DNA of 64,000 nt from Burkholderia ambifaria AMMD (lineage in GTDB: Bacteria > Pseudomonadota > Gammaproteobacteria > Burkholderiales > Burkholderiaceae), in the NCBI RefSeq assembly GCF_000203915.1, contig NC_008390.1, positions 1,488,001 to 1,552,000 of the forward strand, written 5' to 3'. Positions 18,187-55,756 of this stretch are shown here, in pieces (position 1 is the stretch's first letter; every line of letters starts with the position of its first letter). The notes beneath the pieces were generated by a model that was given only the letters and a program-made list of their open reading frames with translations, ran no database searches and was not told where the DNA came from. A program made the translations under genes and the position numbers.

Positions 18187-18216
18187 AAAAAGCCCGCCTT
18201 CCGGCGGGCTTTTTTC
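18187..18216 (+). terminator. terminator of bamC
   Basis: The stem AAAAAGCCCGCC/GGCGGGCTTTTT with loop TTCC is followed by Ts. Confidence 0.9.
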
Positions 18217-18270: not shown

Positions 18271-18295
18271 CGTTACGTAACATCCGCGCGTTACG
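18271..18295. promoter_or_regulatory. CGTTACG motif pair, candidate enhancer-binding site
   Basis: Two copies of CGTTACG (18271-18277 and 18289-18295) lie 18 bp apart, and the first sits in the palindrome GTTACGTAAC. They are 79-103 bp upstream of a sigma-54-like promoter. The same heptamer clusters upstream of the sigma-54 promoter at 54980. Confidence 0.5.
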
Positions 18296-18373
18296 GCCGC
18301 AGGACAGGTGTTACATCGTCACGACAGCAGAAAATCTCCTTATGGATCAACGGTGTACTTTAGCAAATGTGCC

Positions 18374-18389
18374 TGGCACACAAACTGCT
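18374..18389 (+). promoter_or_regulatory. sigma-54 (-24/-12) promoter candidate
   Basis: The sequence TGGCACACAAACTGCT places GG at 18375-18376 and GC at 18387-18388, exactly 12 bp apart as sigma-54 holoenzyme requires. It matches the -24 element TGGCAC fully and the -12 element TTGC at three of four bases. Transcription would start near 18400, at the 5' end of a strongly folded RNA. Confidence 0.65.
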
Positions 18390-18399
18390 TTATAAGGTG

Positions 18400-18602
18400 G
18401 AGTCGTGAAGACAGGGAGGGTGGCGTCAGAGAGCGGGCGGCGTCTCGACCGTCCGACCGATGTCTTCAGATGCCGGTGCTCCGAGCGCCGGCGCAAAACC
18501 GATAACGATCCGCGCGATGCGCGGATCCCGATGGCCCCGTCGCCTTTCCTCGTAGGGCGACGGTTTCGCCCGCGCTTCTTCTGAAGCGCGGGCAATTTTT
18601 TT
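18400..18602 (+). ncRNA. candidate structured small RNA
   Basis: An intergenic RNA of about 203 nt is predicted from the sigma-54-like promoter to an intrinsic terminator. It can form a long-range helix TGAAGACA/TGTCTTCA (18406-18413 with 18461-18468), then the hairpins GCCGGTGCT/AGCGCCGGC (18472-18492), GATCCGCGC/GCGCGGATC (18507-18527) and CCGTCGCC/GGCGACGG (18537-18563), and the terminator stem. Unpaired stretches include a G-rich 5' segment after the first arm and CAAAACCGATAA. No open frame with a ribosome-binding site is seen, and the next gene lies on the other strand. The family is unknown to me. Confidence 0.6.
18568..18602 (+). terminator. terminator of the candidate sRNA
   Basis: A perfect 11-bp stem GCCCGCGCTTC/GAAGCGCGGGC with loop TTCT is followed by AA and seven Ts. 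Confidence 0.92.
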
Positions 18603-18821
18603 GGGGCGGCAAAGCGAATGCATGCCGATCCGGCCGCGGGATTCGTATTGGTTGAGCGCTGGGAGGGTGGGGCTGCATTGGCCGCACATGTGCATTCGCC
18701 GCACATTCCGGCTTGCCGCGGAGCGGTCGCGGACGGATCGATCGTTCCCGGATCCGCGTGCTGTGGAGGTTCGTTTGAGCTGGGCAAGGCGGCCGGACGC
18801 ATTGCCGGCCGCTGCGATCCG

Positions 18822-21542: not shown

Positions 21543-21944
21543 TTACGCCATCTTCACGGGGGCGCGCCAGGATTCCGGATTGGTCCAGAAGGCGCCGCGC
21601 AGCCGGTCGCGGCTCGGCGGTGCAGGCGGCTTCGCCGCGCTTGCCCCGATGCGACCGCGCAACGAGATCTGGCGGCCGCTCGTGCCGAGTCGCTTGACGA
21701 TTTCGGCGAGCGTACCGTCTGCCTGCCATTCGTCGAAGCGACGGCGGCAGGTCGGCGGCGACGGATAGCGGCCCGGCAGTTTGGACCAGCCTTCACCCGT
21801 CGACAGTACCCACAGCACGGCATTGACCACGGAACGGGCCTCCACGCGGGGACGGCCGCGCCGTTCGCTTCGTGCGGGTTCCGAGCAAAACAGACCTTCG
21901 ACCAGCGCCCACTCGTTATCTCTCAAATCGTCGAACAGCATCAT
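21543..21944 (-). CDS. stand-alone IS5-type transposase N-terminal domain protein
   Basis: This 133-aa protein begins MMLFDDLRDNEWALVEGLF. It matches the helical N-terminal domain found in front of the DDE nuclease in IS5/IS402-type transposases (DUF4096): RGRPR, VVNAVLWVLSTGEGWSKLP, RYPSPPTCRRRFDEW and GTL. The catalytic domain is absent. The last 45 residues are basic and Pro/Ala-rich and do not match a transposase. No flanking inverted repeats are visible. A paralogue with the same layout lies at 49065-49475, which argues for a domesticated DNA-binding protein rather than a random IS scar. Confidence 0.75.
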   Translation of the reverse strand: MMLFDDLRDNEWALVEGLFCSEPARSERRGRPRVEARSVVNAVLWVLSTGEGWSKLPGRYPSPPTCRRRFDEWQADGTLAEIVKRLGTSGRQISLRGRIGASAAKPPAPPSRDRLRGAFWTNPESWRAPVKMA

Positions 21945-27815: not shown

Positions 27816-27844
27816 TTGGCGTTTGCGCCAAAAAACGCTATAAT
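27816..27844 (+). promoter_or_regulatory. sigma-70 promoter of the rimP-nusA-infB operon
   Basis: The -35 box TTGGCG (27816-27821), a 17-bp spacer and the perfect -10 box TATAAT (27839-27844) place the start near 27851, about 180 nt upstream of rimP. An attenuator-like terminator lies in the leader. Confidence 0.8.
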
Positions 27845-27850
27845 CGCAGA

Positions 27851-28032
27851 GTCGCTGGGCGTACGGATTCAATGTGCGGCTCAGGTGCGACCACCAGTAA
27901 GAAGATGGGCGTTCCGCCCATTTTTTTTTGCTGAAACGGTTAGGCATCTCGGGTAGCGCTTCCTGCGCCGGCTAAGGCGCGCGCCCGCGGGTGTAATCGC
28001 GAGCGGCGGGCGCGAACACCTGAGAGGACACT
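27851..28032 (+). other. rimP operon leader
   Basis: This untranslated leader of about 180 nt lies between the promoter and rimP. It holds a terminator at 27905-27929 and then about 100 nt before the GTG start. Structured leaders upstream of rimP are known in proteobacteria. The layout here suggests that transcription of this operon, which encodes NusA itself, is controlled by termination or antitermination; that is inference. Confidence 0.5.
27905..27929 (+). terminator. attenuator-like terminator in the rimP leader
   Basis: The 7-bp stem ATGGGCG/CGCCCAT with a TTC loop is followed by eight more Ts. It comes only about 55 nt after the predicted transcription start. Confidence 0.8.
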
Positions 28033-41670: not shown

Positions 41671-41933
41671 GCATTCTCGCGAGGTGCAACCGGAGCGGTT
41701 GCAAAACACTGTTCCCCGGTGTCGTGGCAATCGGGCAAAACCCCGTCGTACGGTGCTTCCGGGCGCATCTCGCCGTGAACTTCGGTATCGGTTCTGTGAT
41801 ATGCTGCGCGCACGCAAGTTTTAGGTCCTTCCAAGCAAGACTTGATTCGCAATCCGCTAAACGGTCAGGCCGTGTCGCGGAAGGTTGAGCAACCCGCTAT
41901 TTCTCGAGAAGCTCGAAGAAAGGTGAGCGTAAA
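41671..41933 (+). other. intergenic region upstream of sucA
   Basis: No gene is seen. A perfect inverted repeat TGCAACCG-GAG-CGGTTGCA (41685-41703) could be an operator or a hairpin. A TATGCT -10-like box follows near 41800. The sucA ribosome-binding site AAAGGTGAG ends the region. Confidence 0.4.
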
Positions 41934-49064: not shown

Positions 49065-49475
49065 ATGACACCGTATCGCGATCTGACCGACCACGAGTGG
49101 CACTGCGTCGTGCCGCTTCTGCCCGAAATGCAGCCGCGCACCGAGTTGCGCGGCCGGCCGTTGGCCAACACGCGCGCCGTCCTGAACGGCGTTCTATGGG
49201 TCATCTATAGCGGCGCGACCTGGTCCGCGATGCCGCGTCGTTACCCTTCATATCAGACATGCCATCGCCGCTTTAAGGTCTGGCACGAGACCGGCACGTT
49301 GATGCAAGTGATGCGTGAGCTGTATGGCGACGCAGGCGTGAATCTGTGCAACGAACTGTCCACGCGGATGCGCAAGCACACGCAATCGAAGGCGGCAGAG
49401 GCGCGGGGTGCCGCGGCGCCGGTGTATCGTGCACCGGGCAGCTATGCGTCGGATACGCTGAAGCACGCAGCGTGA
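49065..49475 (+). CDS. stand-alone IS5-type transposase N-terminal domain protein (second copy)
   Basis: This 136-aa protein begins MTPYRDLTDHEWHCVVPLLPE behind CTGGAGAT. It has the DUF4096 pattern of IS5/IS402-type transposase N-termini: LRGRPLANTRAVLNGVLWVIYSGATWSAMP, RYPSYQTCHRRFKVW and GTL. The DDE domain is missing, and a Lys/Ala-rich tail with RMRKHTQSKAAEARG replaces it. It is a distant paralogue of the protein at 21543-21944, sharing motifs in the same order. A terminator follows, and no terminal inverted repeats or target duplications are visible. A domesticated DNA-binding role is inferred. Confidence 0.78.
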   Translation: MTPYRDLTDHEWHCVVPLLPEMQPRTELRGRPLANTRAVLNGVLWVIYSGATWSAMPRRYPSYQTCHRRFKVWHETGTLMQVMRELYGDAGVNLCNELSTRMRKHTQSKAAEARGAAAPVYRAPGSYASDTLKHAA

Positions 49476-50201: not shown

Positions 50202-51887
50202 TCAGTTCAACTGATACGAGAACGCGGCATTCACGCGCGGGCTGCGCGATGCGCTTTCAACGGGTGCATCGCCGACCGGCTTCGCGATATTCAGGTCGAG
50301 ACTGTAGTAGCGGCTGTCCGAAAACCGTACGCCGATACCGACCGACGACAAGCGGCTCGGCGACGGCGTGCCCGTATGCAGGTACACACGTGCCCTGTCA
50401 TAAGCGATGTACGGCGTGATCGACTTCATGTACGTCCAGCCCGGCGTGAAGGCGCGATTGACCTCCAGCGACATCCCCCATCCCGAGTCGCCCGACGTTT
50501 CGCCCGGTTGGTAGCCGAGCGCATAGCGTGTCGAACCGAACGAGATCTGTTCGGACGTCGGCAGCGAATCGGGGCTGTACTGGCCGGTCAGCGACACCGA
50601 CGTGCCGATCTTGAACGGCCATTCGTTGGTCTGCGTGAAGGTCGCACCGGTGCGCACGAACGTCAGCGAAATCGGGCTGTCCACCGATGTCGTGTTCGAG
50701 CCGATCGTGATGTCCTGCGATTTCGACGCGCCGAGAATGTTGAAGCCCTTCGCGACGTTGACGCTGAGTTTCTGAACCTGCTTGGCCGACACGCTCGTGT
50801 AGTCGAGCTGCATCTGCAGCACGCGGACCTGCGAGCGCGTGTCGATGCTGTTGCCGGTGATCGTGTTCTGGTAGCGGTCTTCGTTGTGCGACGCATAGCC
50901 CGACACGGTGCCGAGCAGGCTGCGCTGGTTGTTCAGCAGCAACGGATAGGATGCCGAAAGACCGAGCTTCTCGTTCTTGACCGTCCGCTCGACGGTCGAC
51001 GGCAGGCCCGGGTTGTCGGTCGGCTTGCCGCGATACGTGCTGGCGTCGAGGCGCGTGACCAGGCCGCTGCTGCCGACCGGCACCGCGCCGCTGAATGCGA
51101 CGTAGGTCTGCTTGTCGCGGCCGGGCGGCACCAGTGCGGAAATGCTCAATTGCTCGCCAAACGACGTGAGGCCATTCTCGGTCGCGGTGATGAGCCCCTG
51201 GACGCCCGGGTGATTGAAATCGATGCCGGTGCTGATGTTGAATGCCTTGCGGTCGACGGCGAGTTCGAGCGTCGTCGCGCCGTCGGTCGTTTGCGGCGGC
51301 GGCACGTTGGCCTTCACCGTGACGCCGGGCAGGAGGCCGAAGGTGTTCACGTAGCGTTCGAACGTCGCGCGGCGCAGCGGGCGATCGGCCGTGATGTGCG
51401 CGGCGATCGCGCGGATCTTCGATTCCATCGCGCCGGGCTTGCCGGTGACCTTGACGTCCGACACGTAGCCTTCGACGACCGTGACGCGCACGACGCCGTT
51501 CTCGAACGTCTGCGCGGGAATGAACGCGAACGACAGCGCATAGCCGCGATCCTGGTACAGCTTGGTCACGCCGTTGGCGGTTTCGATAAGCTCGCCGATC
51601 GTGATGTCCTTGCCGACGAGGGGCGTGAAGCGACGCGAGATTTCGTCGAACGGCACCGACTTCACGCCTTCGACCTGGAACGTTGTCGGTGTCACGTGCC
51701 GCGACAGCAGCTCCTGCAACTGCGGTGCCTGCGGCGCGACCTGCACGGTGACGCTCGGCCCTTTCTTCGGCGCGTTGATCTGGGGGAGGGAATCGAGCGG
51801 GTTGCCTGCTGCGCGCGTCTGTGCCTGTGCCGTGCCTGCTGCTGCGATGGCGAGCAGCATCATCCATGTATCGAATCTGGATTTCAT
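50202..51887 (-). CDS. TpsB-type outer-membrane transporter (ShlB/FhaC family)
   Basis: This 561-aa protein resembles the two-partner secretion pores that translocate large adhesins or haemolysins. It has a signal peptide (MLLAIAAAGTAQA), a Pro-rich N-terminus, and POTRA domains at about 65-215 (TTFQVEGVKSVPFDEISRRF, VVRVTVVEGYVSDVKV). A 16-stranded barrel follows (about 215-561), with the conserved loop-6 region GSTRYALGYQPGETSGDSGW. It ends FSYQLN, so the last residue is not aromatic as is usual. No TpsA gene with a filamentous-haemagglutinin domain is present; instead two repetitive lipoproteins precede it in the operon. Confidence 0.88.
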   Translation of the reverse strand: MKSRFDTWMMLLAIAAAGTAQAQTRAAGNPLDSLPQINAPKKGPSVTVQVAPQAPQLQELLSRHVTPTTFQVEGVKSVPFDEISRRFTPLVGKDITIGELIETANGVTKLYQDRGYALSFAFIPAQTFENGVVRVTVVEGYVSDVKVTGKPGAMESKIRAIAAHITADRPLRRATFERYVNTFGLLPGVTVKANVPPPQTTDGATTLELAVDRKAFNISTGIDFNHPGVQGLITATENGLTSFGEQLSISALVPPGRDKQTYVAFSGAVPVGSSGLVTRLDASTYRGKPTDNPGLPSTVERTVKNEKLGLSASYPLLLNNQRSLLGTVSGYASHNEDRYQNTITGNSIDTRSQVRVLQMQLDYTSVSAKQVQKLSVNVAKGFNILGASKSQDITIGSNTTSVDSPISLTFVRTGATFTQTNEWPFKIGTSVSLTGQYSPDSLPTSEQISFGSTRYALGYQPGETSGDSGWGMSLEVNRAFTPGWTYMKSITPYIAYDRARVYLHTGTPSPSRLSSVGIGVRFSDSRYYSLDLNIAKPVGDAPVESASRSPRVNAAFSYQLN

Positions 51888-52032
51888 TGTTCTTCCTCGT
51901 AGGCCTTTCTTTTCGTCTTCGTTCTAATGCGGGCGCGCGACATTCGGGTGTCGTGCGCCGCGTGCCGCATCGCCGGTTGTGTTTTGTACGGCCGCGCCTC
52001 CTGCTCCGGCTGCAAAGGCGCGACCGTCCTCC

Positions 52033-53304
52033 TTACTTGCCGACGCTACCCAGCGTGCCCAGCAGCCCCGTTACCGGCGCCAGCAGGCCCGTCGAGCCGC
52101 CCGACGAGGCCGTCCCCGACACCCCGCCGACGAGCGACGTGACCGGCGCGAGCGGATTCGACGAAGCCCCGGATCCCGCCGCGCCACCCACTGCTGCGGT
52201 GACAGTATTCAGCAAACCGGTGACCGGCGCGAGAGGGTTTGCCCCGCCTGCGCCACCCGTCGCGCCGCCCACGGCGCCCGTGAGCGAACCGAGCGGCGTC
52301 GAGCCGAGGCCGGACAGCAGGCCGCCGAGCGGGTTCGTCGCGCTGGAACCCGACGATGAGCCGTTCTGAACGGCCGTGGTCGAGCCGCCGACGAGGCTCG
52401 TGATCAGGCCGGGGATGGGTGCCGCGCCGTTCGGGCCGTTCGGGTTCACGAGGCCGCCCGCGTTCGTCACGGTGTTGCCGACCGCGGTGACGAGCTGGCC
52501 GACGTCGCCGACGAGCGGTTGATTCGACGTGCTACCCACTTGCTTGCCCGCCGAGCTGATCGCGCCGCCGACCTGACCGAGCAGGCCCGATACCGGTTGA
52601 CCGAGGCCCGTGGTCGTGCCGACTTGTTGCGTGACCTGACCCGCGGTGATCACCAGCGGCGTGATTGCCGAGCTGAGCGGTTGCGTCACTTGCTGCACGG
52701 CGCCCGATGACAGCGTCGAGCCGATCGTCGTGCCGGCGGCCGTCAGACCGTTGGCGACGGTGTCGAGCACGGTGCCGACCGGTGTCGTCACCGGGGCGAG
52801 CGGCGAGAGCTGCCCGGTGCCGAGCGCCTTGACCGTCGAGCTCAGCCCCGACACGGTGTTGCTCGTCGCGCCGACGACGTTCCCGAGGCCGGCGACCGTC
52901 GTGCCGACCGGGTCCTTGATCGTGCCGGTCTGTCCCAGCCCGTTGCTCAACGCATCGGCGGCCGCGCCGACGATCGTGCCGGTGCTCGAGATGGTGCTGC
53001 CGACGCCCTTCGTCACGCCGTCGCCGAGGCCCGGCACGCTGATGTTGCCGACAGTGCTGCCGAGGTCGGTCGCGGTCTGGCCGACCGTGCTGACAACGCC
53101 GTTGGTGCCGGTCGCCGTACCGCTGGTGCCACTCGTGCCGGTAGTACCGCTCGTGCCGCTGGAGCCGCCGCCGTTGTTGGCGGTCGGCGGCGTGCTGACG
53201 CTGTTGCCGCCGCAGGCGGCCAGCAGGCACGCAGCGGCGAATACGGTGACGGGCATGCGCCACTGGCGCGGCGCGACTGTCGTGAAGGAACGTTGCTGGG
53301 ACAT
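52033..53304 (-). CDS. repetitive Gly/Thr/Ser/Val-rich lipoprotein B
   Basis: This 423-aa protein starts behind GAGGAG. The signal peptide has a lipobox CLLAAC, so it is a lipoprotein. The mature part begins with a low-complexity GTSGT tract and continues with degenerate repeats of about 10-25 residues rich in Gly, Thr, Val and Leu (VGSTISSTGTIVGAAADAL, PLAPVTGLLNTVTAAVGGA). Similar genes are sometimes called collagen-like, but there is no Gly-X-Y periodicity. It shares its architecture and repeat phrases with the upstream lipoprotein A, so the two are tandem paralogues. A surface or adhesive role is inferred from the TpsB and Tad neighbours. Confidence 0.8.
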   Translation of the reverse strand: MSQQRSFTTVAPRQWRMPVTVFAAACLLAACGGNSVSTPPTANNGGGSSGTSGTTGTSGTSGTATGTNGVVSTVGQTATDLGSTVGNISVPGLGDGVTKGVGSTISSTGTIVGAAADALSNGLGQTGTIKDPVGTTVAGLGNVVGATSNTVSGLSSTVKALGTGQLSPLAPVTTPVGTVLDTVANGLTAAGTTIGSTLSSGAVQQVTQPLSSAITPLVITAGQVTQQVGTTTGLGQPVSGLLGQVGGAISSAGKQVGSTSNQPLVGDVGQLVTAVGNTVTNAGGLVNPNGPNGAAPIPGLITSLVGGSTTAVQNGSSSGSSATNPLGGLLSGLGSTPLGSLTGAVGGATGGAGGANPLAPVTGLLNTVTAAVGGAAGSGASSNPLAPVTSLVGGVSGTASSGGSTGLLAPVTGLLGTLGSVGK

Positions 53305-53344: not shown

Positions 53345-54928
53345 TTACTTGCCGCGCGTGCCGCCGAGCAGGCCGCCGATCAGCGACGTGACAGGTGCGA
53401 GCAGATTCGAACCCGAGCCCGAGTTCGTGACGGCGCCCGTGGTGCCGCTCAGTGACGGTGCGCCGCCCGTGCTGGTGACTGCGGTGACCGGAGCGGCGAT
53501 TGGATTGCCACCGCCGGTTGCGCTGCCGAGCGCGCCGGTGACCGTGGAGAGGAGGCCCGTGACGGGGGCGAGCGGGCCGCCGCTCGTGCCGCCGGCCGCG
53601 CCACCCAGTGCACCGGTAACGGTGGAGACGAGGCCGGTGACCGGAGCGAGCGGACCGCCGCTCGTGCCGCCGGCTGCGCCACCGAGTGCACCGGTGACGG
53701 TGGAGACGAGGCCGGTGACCGGAGCGAGCGGGCCGCCGCTGGTGCCGCCGGCTGCGCCGCCGAGTGCGCCGGTGACGGTGGAGACGAGGCCGGTGACCGG
53801 AGCGAGCGGGCCGCCGCTCGTGCCGCCCGTTGCGCCGCCGAGCGGGCCGCTGACCGTCGAGAGGAGGCCGGTGAGCGGGGCGAGCGGGTTGGTCGCGCCG
53901 CCGGTGCTGCCCGTGAGCAGGCCGCCGACTGCCTTGACGGTATTGCCGGTCGACGAGACGGTGTTGCCGAGGCCGGTCGTGACGGGGTTGCCGCCCGTCG
54001 AGGCGATCAGCGCGCCGCCCTGGTTCAGGCCGTTGCCGATCGTGCCGAGCAGCGTGTTGACCGGCGCGCCGAGGCCGGTGGCCGTCCCGATCGTCTGCGT
54101 CGTCTGGCCGACCATCGTCGTGATCGGCGTGATGGCCGAGCTGACCGTCTGCGTGATCTGCTGGATCGGGCCGGTCGACAGCGCGTTGGACAGCGTGGTG
54201 CCACCGTTCGATACCGCGTTGCCGACTTGCGTCACGAGGCCGCCGACGGCGCCGGTGACGGGGGCGAGCGGCGACAGCGGGCCGCTGCTGAGGCTCGTGA
54301 CCAGGTTGCCTGTTTGCGTGACCGCGCCGCCGAGCTGGTTGACGACGCCGCCCGTGCTCGAGACCGTGACGCCGACCGGGTCTTTCGTCGCACCGAGCTG
54401 GCCGAGGCCGCCGCCCACGCCAGTGCCGAGCGCCGTGACCGCGCCGCCGACGTACTGGATGATGCCGCCGGCGGCCTGCGTCGTGGCCGGATCGACGCCG
54501 GGCAGCGACTGGTTCGCGATGGTGCTGCCGAGGCCCGACGCGGTTCCACCGAGACTCGTGATGACGTTGCCGCCTTGTGCGAGGACATTCCCTACCGGGT
54601 TCGCCGACACACCGGAGGTGCCGCTCGTACCGCTGGACGTTCCACTCGTCGTTCCGCTGGTGCTGCCGCTCGTCGAACCGCTCGTGCTGCCGCTGGTCGA
54701 GCCGCTGGTGCTGCCCGAGGTGCCGCCGCTCGTCGAACCGGACGTGCCGCCCGACGTGCCGCCGCCCGACGTGGAGATCGAGTCGCTGCCGCCGGAACCG
54801 GAGCCGCCGCTGATCCCCTTGCTGATGGAACCCGAGCCGCCGCACGCGGAGAGGGAAAGCATGGCTGCCACGGTGGCCGCGATCATAGTCGTCCGAAGCA
54901 TGCCATGAGGGATAACCTGAATGTCCAT
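53345..54928 (-). CDS. repetitive Gly/Ser/Thr-rich lipoprotein A with 26-aa tandem repeats
   Basis: This 527-aa protein is the first gene of the operon. The start at 54928 has GAGGA 6 bp upstream; an ATG at 54901 is a weaker choice. The lipobox is LSLSAC. The mature N-terminus has about a dozen STSG-type tetrapeptides, then Val/Thr/Gly-rich segments like those of lipoprotein B (SSAITPITTMVGQTTQTIG), and then about 4.5 nearly identical 26-aa repeats (GLVSTVTGALGGAAGGTSGG then PLAPVT). No family function is known to me. A sigma-54 promoter lies about 50 bp upstream. Confidence 0.8.
   Translation of the reverse strand: MDIQVIPHGMLRTTMIAATVAAMLSLSACGGSGSISKGISGGSGSGGSDSISTSGGGTSGGTSGSTSGGTSGSTSGSTSGSTSGSTSGSTSGTTSGTSSGTSGTSGVSANPVGNVLAQGGNVITSLGGTASGLGSTIANQSLPGVDPATTQAAGGIIQYVGGAVTALGTGVGGGLGQLGATKDPVGVTVSSTGGVVNQLGGAVTQTGNLVTSLSSGPLSPLAPVTGAVGGLVTQVGNAVSNGGTTLSNALSTGPIQQITQTVSSAITPITTMVGQTTQTIGTATGLGAPVNTLLGTIGNGLNQGGALIASTGGNPVTTGLGNTVSSTGNTVKAVGGLLTGSTGGATNPLAPLTGLLSTVSGPLGGATGGTSGGPLAPVTGLVSTVTGALGGAAGGTSGGPLAPVTGLVSTVTGALGGAAGGTSGGPLAPVTGLVSTVTGALGGAAGGTSGGPLAPVTGLLSTVTGALGSATGGGNPIAAPVTAVTSTGGAPSLSGTTGAVTNSGSGSNLLAPVTSLIGGLLGGTRGK
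53538..53893. repeat. 78-bp tandem repeat array inside lipoprotein A gene
   Basis: About 4.5 head-to-tail copies of a 78-bp unit start at 53538, 53616, 53694, 53772 and 53850. The middle copies differ at only a few bases. The period is a multiple of three, so gain or loss of units keeps the frame and would vary protein length. Confidence 0.88.
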
Positions 54929-54979: not shown

Positions 54980-54995
54980 TGCAACTGTCGTGCCA
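54980..54995 (-). promoter_or_regulatory. sigma-54 (-24/-12) promoter of the lipoprotein/TpsB operon
   Basis: On the minus strand the sequence reads TGGCACGACAGTTGCA, a full match to the consensus TGGCACG-N4-TTGCA. The GG and GC dinucleotides are 12 bp apart. Transcription would start near 54969, giving a leader of about 40 nt before lipoprotein A. Expression should need RpoN and an enhancer-binding protein. Confidence 0.85.
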
Positions 54996-55124: not shown

Positions 55125-55169
55125 CGTAACGTAACGTCACAACATTGGCGTTACGCGTGCGGCGTAACG
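55125..55169. promoter_or_regulatory. CGTTACG/CGTAACG motif cluster, candidate enhancer-binding site
   Basis: Four copies of CGTAACG or its complement CGTTACG occur at 55125-55131, 55130-55136, 55149-55155 and 55163-55169. They are 130-190 bp upstream of the minus-strand sigma-54 promoter, a typical distance for an activator of that promoter. A fifth copy lies at 55489-55495. The same heptamer precedes the sigma-54-like promoter at 18374. Confidence 0.6.
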
Positions 55170-55591: not shown

Positions 55592-55756
55592 ATGAAAGCA
55601 CTTATCAAGCGCTTCCTCAAGGAAGAAGACGGGGTGACCGCGATCGAGTATGGGCTGATTGCGGGTCTGATTGCGGCCTTGATCATTACCAGCGTGACGA
55701 CCATCGGCACGAAGATCGCGGCTCTGTTCTCCACGATTGCCAGTTCGCTGCCCTAA
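55592..55756 (+). CDS. flp: Flp/Fap-type pilin subunit
   Basis: This 54-aa prepilin of the tight-adherence (Tad) pilus starts at ATG 55592 behind CGAGGAA. It has a basic leader MKALIKRFLKEEDG cut after Gly14 by the TadV peptidase. The mature hydrophobic helix VTAIEYGLIAGLIAALIITS carries the conserved Glu at +5 followed by Tyr, the Flp motif. The gene leads the Tad cluster. Flp pilins are polymerised by TadA into bundled pili for adhesion and biofilm. Confidence 0.95.
   Translation: MKALIKRFLKEEDGVTAIEYGLIAGLIAALIITSVTTIGTKIAALFSTIASSLP

Follow-up and report, generated by a model that had tools for sequence, protein, structure and literature searches.

A Conserved Small RNA Gene of Burkholderia with a Predicted Sigma-54 Promoter and Its Proposed Link to a Collagen-Like/ShlB Operon beside the Flp/Tad Cluster

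The locus described here is situated between bamC and a minus-strand gene of 85 amino acids, within a 64,000-nucleotide stretch of the Burkholderia ambifaria AMMD genome that was analyzed as a whole and is referred to below as the window. An earlier note on this DNA had read the interval as an orphan small RNA gene with a sigma-54 promoter, and its coordinates proved to be correct. The -24/-12 element TGGCACACAAACTGCT (18374-18389, plus strand) has the GG-N10-GC spacing that had been claimed, with GG at 18375-18376 and GC at 18387-18388, and its TGGC and TGCT blocks are identical in all 65 aligned loci of the genus. The pattern TGGCAYNNNNNYTGCW, which was drawn up only after the site had been seen, matches twice in the 64 kb against an expectation of 0.22, a count of two being reached in 3 of 100 shuffles. 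Further upstream (18272-18295, plus strand) are putative activator sites: GTTACGTAAC at 18272-18281, which is identical in 65 of 65 genus loci in the alignment and occurs a single time in the whole genome, and the half-site GTTACG at 18290-18295, so that half-sites begin at 18272 (GTTAC), 18277 (GTAAC), and 18290 (GTTAC). Between these sites and the promoter lies a putative IHF-like site, GATCAACGGTGTA (18345-18357, plus strand), named for its resemblance to the IHF motif; its ATCA (18346-18349) is also identical in 65 of 65 loci. Such an arrangement of upstream sites, IHF-like site, and -24/-12 element is typical of sigma-54 promoters that depend on an activator. The assignment of a sigma-54 promoter to the RNA gene is supported by comparison, both the conserved GG-N10-GC element and the upstream activator sites being present at the locus, and in two other genera, designated g20 and g25, the promoter and a GTTACG or CGTAAC half-site were found at every locus read (8 of 8 and 7 of 7, respectively).

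Transcription is predicted to start near 18400, giving an RNA of ~203 nt that ends at 18602. Alignment and the structure test divide the predicted primary transcript into a leader (18400-18531, plus strand), in which 18507-18527 forms a hairpin that covaries and a GGGAGG (18414-18419) is conserved, and a near-invariant 3' module (18532-18602, plus strand), also evident from its fold, that comprises a single-stranded UGGCCCC, a seed hairpin (18537-18563), and an intrinsic terminator. The 11-bp terminator with seven T residues described earlier is present as an 11-pair stem at 18568-18593 followed by the T tail at 18596-18602. The fold z score is -3.96 for 18400-18608 and -6.88 for 18532-18602. 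From the end of the -12 element to the end of the terminator, the distance is 212 to 232 nt across loci and 111 nt in one locus, L053. Because the 3' module is nearly invariant, in contrast to a leader that differs among loci in both sequence and length and has largely been lost from L053, the 3' ~70 nt look like the functional core, the working part of the RNA; by analogy with S17 of Bordetella, and given the conservation of these last ~70 nt, a form of this length is probably released by processing. The GGGAGG of the leader, next to which many loci have A or G and then TG, is absent from four (L062-L065) and is partly complementary to the RNA's own loop; it is possibly a means of self-sequestration or a remnant of a ribosome-binding site.

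The structure was tested on 64 of the 65 loci, L053 having been excluded from the fold alignment since most of its leader is missing. In the consensus structure, 97.1% of cells were paired, compared with 31 to 44% when it was slid, and this figure, together with the presence of the locus in 65 of 65 genus genomes searched, supports the existence of a small RNA. Covariation had been proposed as a check on four helices, and the outcome was uneven: the hairpin 18507/18527 has two-sided changes in six of nine pairs and the best covariation support of all, less support comes from the hairpin 18472/18492 (88.8 and 95.1% paired) and least from the long-range region 18406/18461 (87.5% paired, five pairs), and the seed hairpin 18537/18563 never varies across the 64 loci and therefore gives no covariation evidence. 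The emphasis of the earlier note on several hairpins requires partial amendment, the near-invariant part being confined to the last ~70 nt.

Of the flanking genes, bamC has matches at 61 and the 85-amino-acid gene at 63 of the 65 genus loci and at 17 and 12, respectively, of 20 loci from other genera; some of these loci end too early for both flanking genes to show. A covariance model of the 3' module, searched against the 177 other-genus genomes in a 200-genome sample of the family, scored at least 75 bits in 39 genomes (20 in genus g10, 10 in g20, and 9 in g25, these being carriers counted and not fractions of genus totals) and 36 to 56 bits in six more. Among 18 loci with model matches of 30 bits or less that were read, 17 resemble mere terminators. 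Carriers include Burkholderia, Paraburkholderia, and Trinickia records, among them Paraburkholderia xenovorans LB400 (L187). Elsewhere in the window, Rfam matches above threshold were obtained for the Bp1_162 small RNA (27832-27928, minus strand) and the sucA RNA motif (41847-41929, plus strand), and two short frames resembling pieces of IS5-type transposases (21543-21944, minus strand; 49065-49475, plus strand) were noted by eye.

The RNA was called an orphan in the earlier note, a description not supported by its upstream half-sites, which it has in common with a region of the window at a distance of 37 kb. The window contains 39 GTWAC half-sites; three of them fall within 26 nt of one another at only two places, the RNA and 55126-55168, and no such cluster formed in 200 simulated sequences. 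The second cluster, recognized by half-site scan and comparison of loci, contains four half-sites and lies between a Flp pilin gene (55592-55756, plus strand; Pfam Flp_Fap), which is the start of a Flp/Tad cluster, and a divergent operon. The three minus-strand genes of this operon encode two collagen-like proteins, p1 (53348-54928) and p2 (52033-53304), both with Pfam Collagen_mid, and an outer membrane transporter of the ShlB/FhaC type, p3 (50202-51887; Pfam POTRA_2 and ShlB). It is headed by a sigma-54 element, TGGCACGACAGTTGCA (54980-54995, minus strand), a perfect site in the pattern scan; a scan of 23 genus loci for forward sigma-54 matches directed towards flp found none. The flp region was read in 46 of 65 genus genomes, the loci having been found with a looser pattern, and the half-site cluster and divergent sigma-54 site occur together in all 46. 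In 17 flp regions from other genera, four half-sites are present in 13 and a sigma-54 site, as judged by pattern, in 7.

A candidate for the protein that binds these sites is encoded by the last gene of the Flp/Tad cluster, which lies beyond the end of the window, 49 kb from the RNA. It is a sigma-54 activator of 463 amino acids with Pfam Sigma54_activat and HTH_8 domains; its first ~130 residues have no Pfam match. A long gene with an Hfq domain adjoins it (L206:4272-4859, minus strand), 5 to 6 kb past the window end. The activator is found in 64 of 65 genus genomes, the genome from which it is missing being 82% complete. The 10 genomes of g20 and the 9 of g25 that have the RNA at 75 bits or above are exactly those in which an activator ortholog of at least 74% identity occurs; because the genomes are related, such co-occurrence counts are not independent events. 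Genus g10 presents a different picture, with the activator in 4 of the 20 RNA-bearing genomes. The GTTACG site is found in 2 of the 18 g10 loci with a readable core, both of them activator positive (G215 and G225, in which the core pattern did not match, are left out of this count), and 9 of the 16 loci lacking it have another GG-N10-GC sequence, GGACAGTACATTGC. In six sequences that were read (L127, L129, L133, L208, L210, and L212), GGACAGTACATTGC is accompanied by TTGCGCA...TGCGCA half-sites. The altered promoter in g10 possibly reflects a change to a different sigma-54 activator.

A transporter ortholog is present in five of five activator-positive genomes (four of four from g10, plus G079). 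Among the 23 activator-negative genomes tested, two have one, each a g10 genome with an internal stop in the gene. Neither activator nor transporter accompanies the RNA, scored at 75 bits or above, in 14 of the 20 g10 genomes, and three further genomes (G102, G125, and G194) are, by the searches made, without activator, transporter, and intact RNA. A decayed copy of the RNA is seen in G125 (locus L276). There are exceptions in several directions: half-sites are present in G112 and G099 without an activator ortholog or transporter, the activator is present in G093 and G122 with no half-site at the RNA, and G114, a genome 83% complete, has the activator and no RNA match. Locus L253 of G112 encodes a different activator with a similar DNA recognition helix (GISRK-LWEKMR), a possible stand-in for the Tad-cluster protein. 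Two relatives with small genomes, G143 and G200, also share four other activators, two of which are presumably NtrC-like and DctD-like; we prefer the Tad-cluster activator over these on the basis of the shared sites and the co-occurrence.

The predicted target of the RNA lies in the same operon. A search of the window for complements of the seed TCCTCGTAGG (18547-18556, plus strand), which spans the hairpin loop UUUCCUCGUA and the first bases of the stem, returned only the RNA itself and the ribosome-binding site of the transporter gene, CCTACGAGGA (51894-51903, minus strand). This site was read in 20 of the 65 genus genomes, where the 10-nt complement is perfect in 16 and has one mismatch in 4. 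Across 20 genomes of other genera, the full 10-mer is perfect in only 2, and ACGAGG is kept in all 20, a conservation of limited weight since GAGG alone is expected of any ribosome-binding site and the choice of start at the transporter gene favored starts after GAGG or AGGA. When 36 genes of the window were co-folded with the RNA, the transporter ranked first, and none of 300 shuffles matched it; p2 and p1 did not rise above the shuffles, of which 257 and 242 of 300, respectively, matched them, and flp was weak (71 of 300). CGAGGA is found ahead of a potential start in 3 of the 37 genes in the window, all of them members of the collagen-like/transporter operon (Fisher test, 1.4e-5, the test having been chosen after the fact), and it is likewise found ahead of flp, a gene included by hand. 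By its predicted pairing at the ribosome-binding site, the RNA would repress translation of the transporter.

We suggest that these elements form a single regulon with an incoherent feed-forward brake. The activator encoded by the last gene of the Flp/Tad cluster, bound to the GTWAC half-sites, would drive sigma-54 polymerase to transcribe the ~203-nt RNA from near 18400 to 18602, and the same activator and sigma-54 would transcribe the divergent operon for the two collagen-like proteins and the transporter. Processing would free the last ~70 nt, a hairpin with the seed UCCUCGUAGG in its exposed loop followed by the terminator, and the seed would pair with the transporter ribosome-binding site CCUACGAGGA and block translation. 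We regard it as fairly probable that operon and RNA are switched on together in this way and that the RNA limits transporter translation, and we hold with the same degree of confidence, jointly with this regulon model, that the gene encodes a trans-acting small RNA conserved in Burkholderia and in some of the related genera. The promoter, the upstream sites, the RNA family, the sharing of sites, the complementarity, and the co-occurrence emerge from sequence comparison, to which the model adds, by inference, the identity of the activator that binds, the processing, a part for Hfq, and the direction of the effect. We are evenly divided over the broader proposition, that this is a hitherto undescribed sigma-54 regulon of the Burkholderiaceae in which a Tad-end activator governs the collagen/ShlB operon and an RNA 37 to 49 kb away that restrains the transporter, and in which, in another genus, the promoter has changed, activator and transporter have mostly been lost, and an RNA with the same seed has been rewired. 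To our knowledge, few sigma-54-driven small RNAs have both a named activator and a named target. Since the promoter, the activator candidate, the coregulated operon, and the target site are all predicted and conserved, the circuit is readily testable; if it is correct, it would provide a role for an activator whose gene neighbors both a Tad pilus cluster and a gene with an Hfq domain, as well as an example of a small RNA that switches its promoter while its seed stays fixed.

The persistence of the RNA in the 14 g10 genomes lacking both the activator and the transporter indicates that it has further targets or roles, and it lends some weight to a different reading, in which the RNA is a general, sigma-54-controlled regulator of metabolism acting against ribosome-binding sites, with the transporter at most one of many targets and with some other activator in control. 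Also in favor of this reading are the four other activators common to the small-genome relatives and the layout of the RNA, which equals that of the double-hairpin RNAs of RF02278 and of Bordetella S17, the targets of which, in the available portions of the reports, are mostly transport and metabolism genes (PMC5688073, PMC11722255). Against it stand the upstream sites shared with the Flp/Tad region, the conserved 10-nt complement inside that region, and the co-occurrence of RNA and activator in g20 and g25, and we consider it rather unlikely. The nitrogen limitation and biofilm conditions under which the earlier note proposed to test for a transcript found no support in the sequence; an RNA driven by NtrC in response to nitrogen limitation is improbable, for although a presumably NtrC-like activator and a sigma-54 promoter are present, the conserved upstream site is a GTWAC palindrome, unlike the usual NtrC site, and it recurs at the Flp/Tad region. 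Least credible is a short translated leader or a product of the bamC 3' untranslated region in place of an independent RNA, since the 65-amino-acid frame at 18308-18505 begins upstream of the promoter and is poorly conserved (tblastn matches, many of them partial, in 41 of 65 loci), leaving the unit without a conserved open reading frame as had been stated, and since bamC, which the locus follows, is itself provided with a repeat resembling a terminator and with a T run, both near 18190-18215 (by eye), and the sigma-54 promoter is invariant in 65 of 65 loci.

Our preferred reading, a small RNA within the Tad-associated regulon, may be set against RNAs already described. A published description of this RNA was not found in the article text searched, and an entry in the RNA lists of B. 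thailandensis or B. pseudomallei may exist. Two named RNAs were considered and rejected, both from the accessible parts of the reports. NcS25 is 84 nt long, lies between BCAL3007 and BCAL3008, and has no sigma-54 motif upstream there (PMC10117139). The 208-nt ncS11 of B. cenocepacia has the same relative orientation as the present RNA but lies between BCAL2293, which belongs to a ferredoxin/TonB cluster, and BCAL2294, and its distance from ncS63, an RNA linked to hemP, is 3 kb (PMC4603805, PMC5681537, PMC7377471). At locus L205 of B. cenocepacia, no hemP was recognized by eye among the frames around bamC.

The Rfam covariance search of the RNA locus returned no family at threshold, in agreement with the statement that the RNA belongs to no known family. 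The best scores, which place it outside both families, were for anti-hemB RNA (RF02837; 33.6 bits at 18537-18602 against a gathering threshold of 49.5) and for the Betaproteobacteria toxic small RNA (RF02278; 28.4 bits at 18532-18601 against 50). Anti-hemB RNA (ncS04) has a two-hairpin 3' module of similar layout. The RF02278 double-hairpin RNAs (ncS03, ncS05, ncS27, and ncS62; bdhR1) share with the present RNA a short 3' module of one hairpin, a CU-rich unpaired stretch, and a terminator, as well as complementarity to ribosome-binding sites, but the seed differs, and the present RNA has an invariant sigma-54 promoter and a long leader. CrcZ of Pseudomonas acts by titration of Hfq/Crc, whereas the present RNA is predicted to act by seed pairing. 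The likeness to CrcZ and CrcY lies in the promoter, these genes having, in the available text, a sigma-54 promoter, an IHF site, and upstream GTTAC/GTAAC half-sites (PMC6296734, PMC8871633). Nevertheless, half-sites starting at 18272, 18277, and 18290 do not fit the CbrB consensus TGTTAC-N12-14-GTAACA-N15-19-GTAACA given in the accessible part of PMC8871633, and CbrB was rejected as the activator on this spacing; CbrAB is described in those same portions as limited to pseudomonads (PMC6296734, PMC8871633). S17 of Bordetella, as described in the available sections of PMC11722255, is a 190-nt RNA cut to 67 nt and resembles the present RNA in its conserved seed against ribosome-binding sites and in its long and short forms, both of them predicted in the present case. 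It differs in having a sigma-A promoter, in its position between BP3151 and coq7, and in repressing a sigma-54 activator, whereas the present RNA is predicted to depend on sigma-54 (PMC11722255). While it falls outside the families against which it was compared, the present RNA appears from its sequence to resemble S17 and the RF02278 RNAs at the level of the RNA and the CrcZ type at the level of the promoter.
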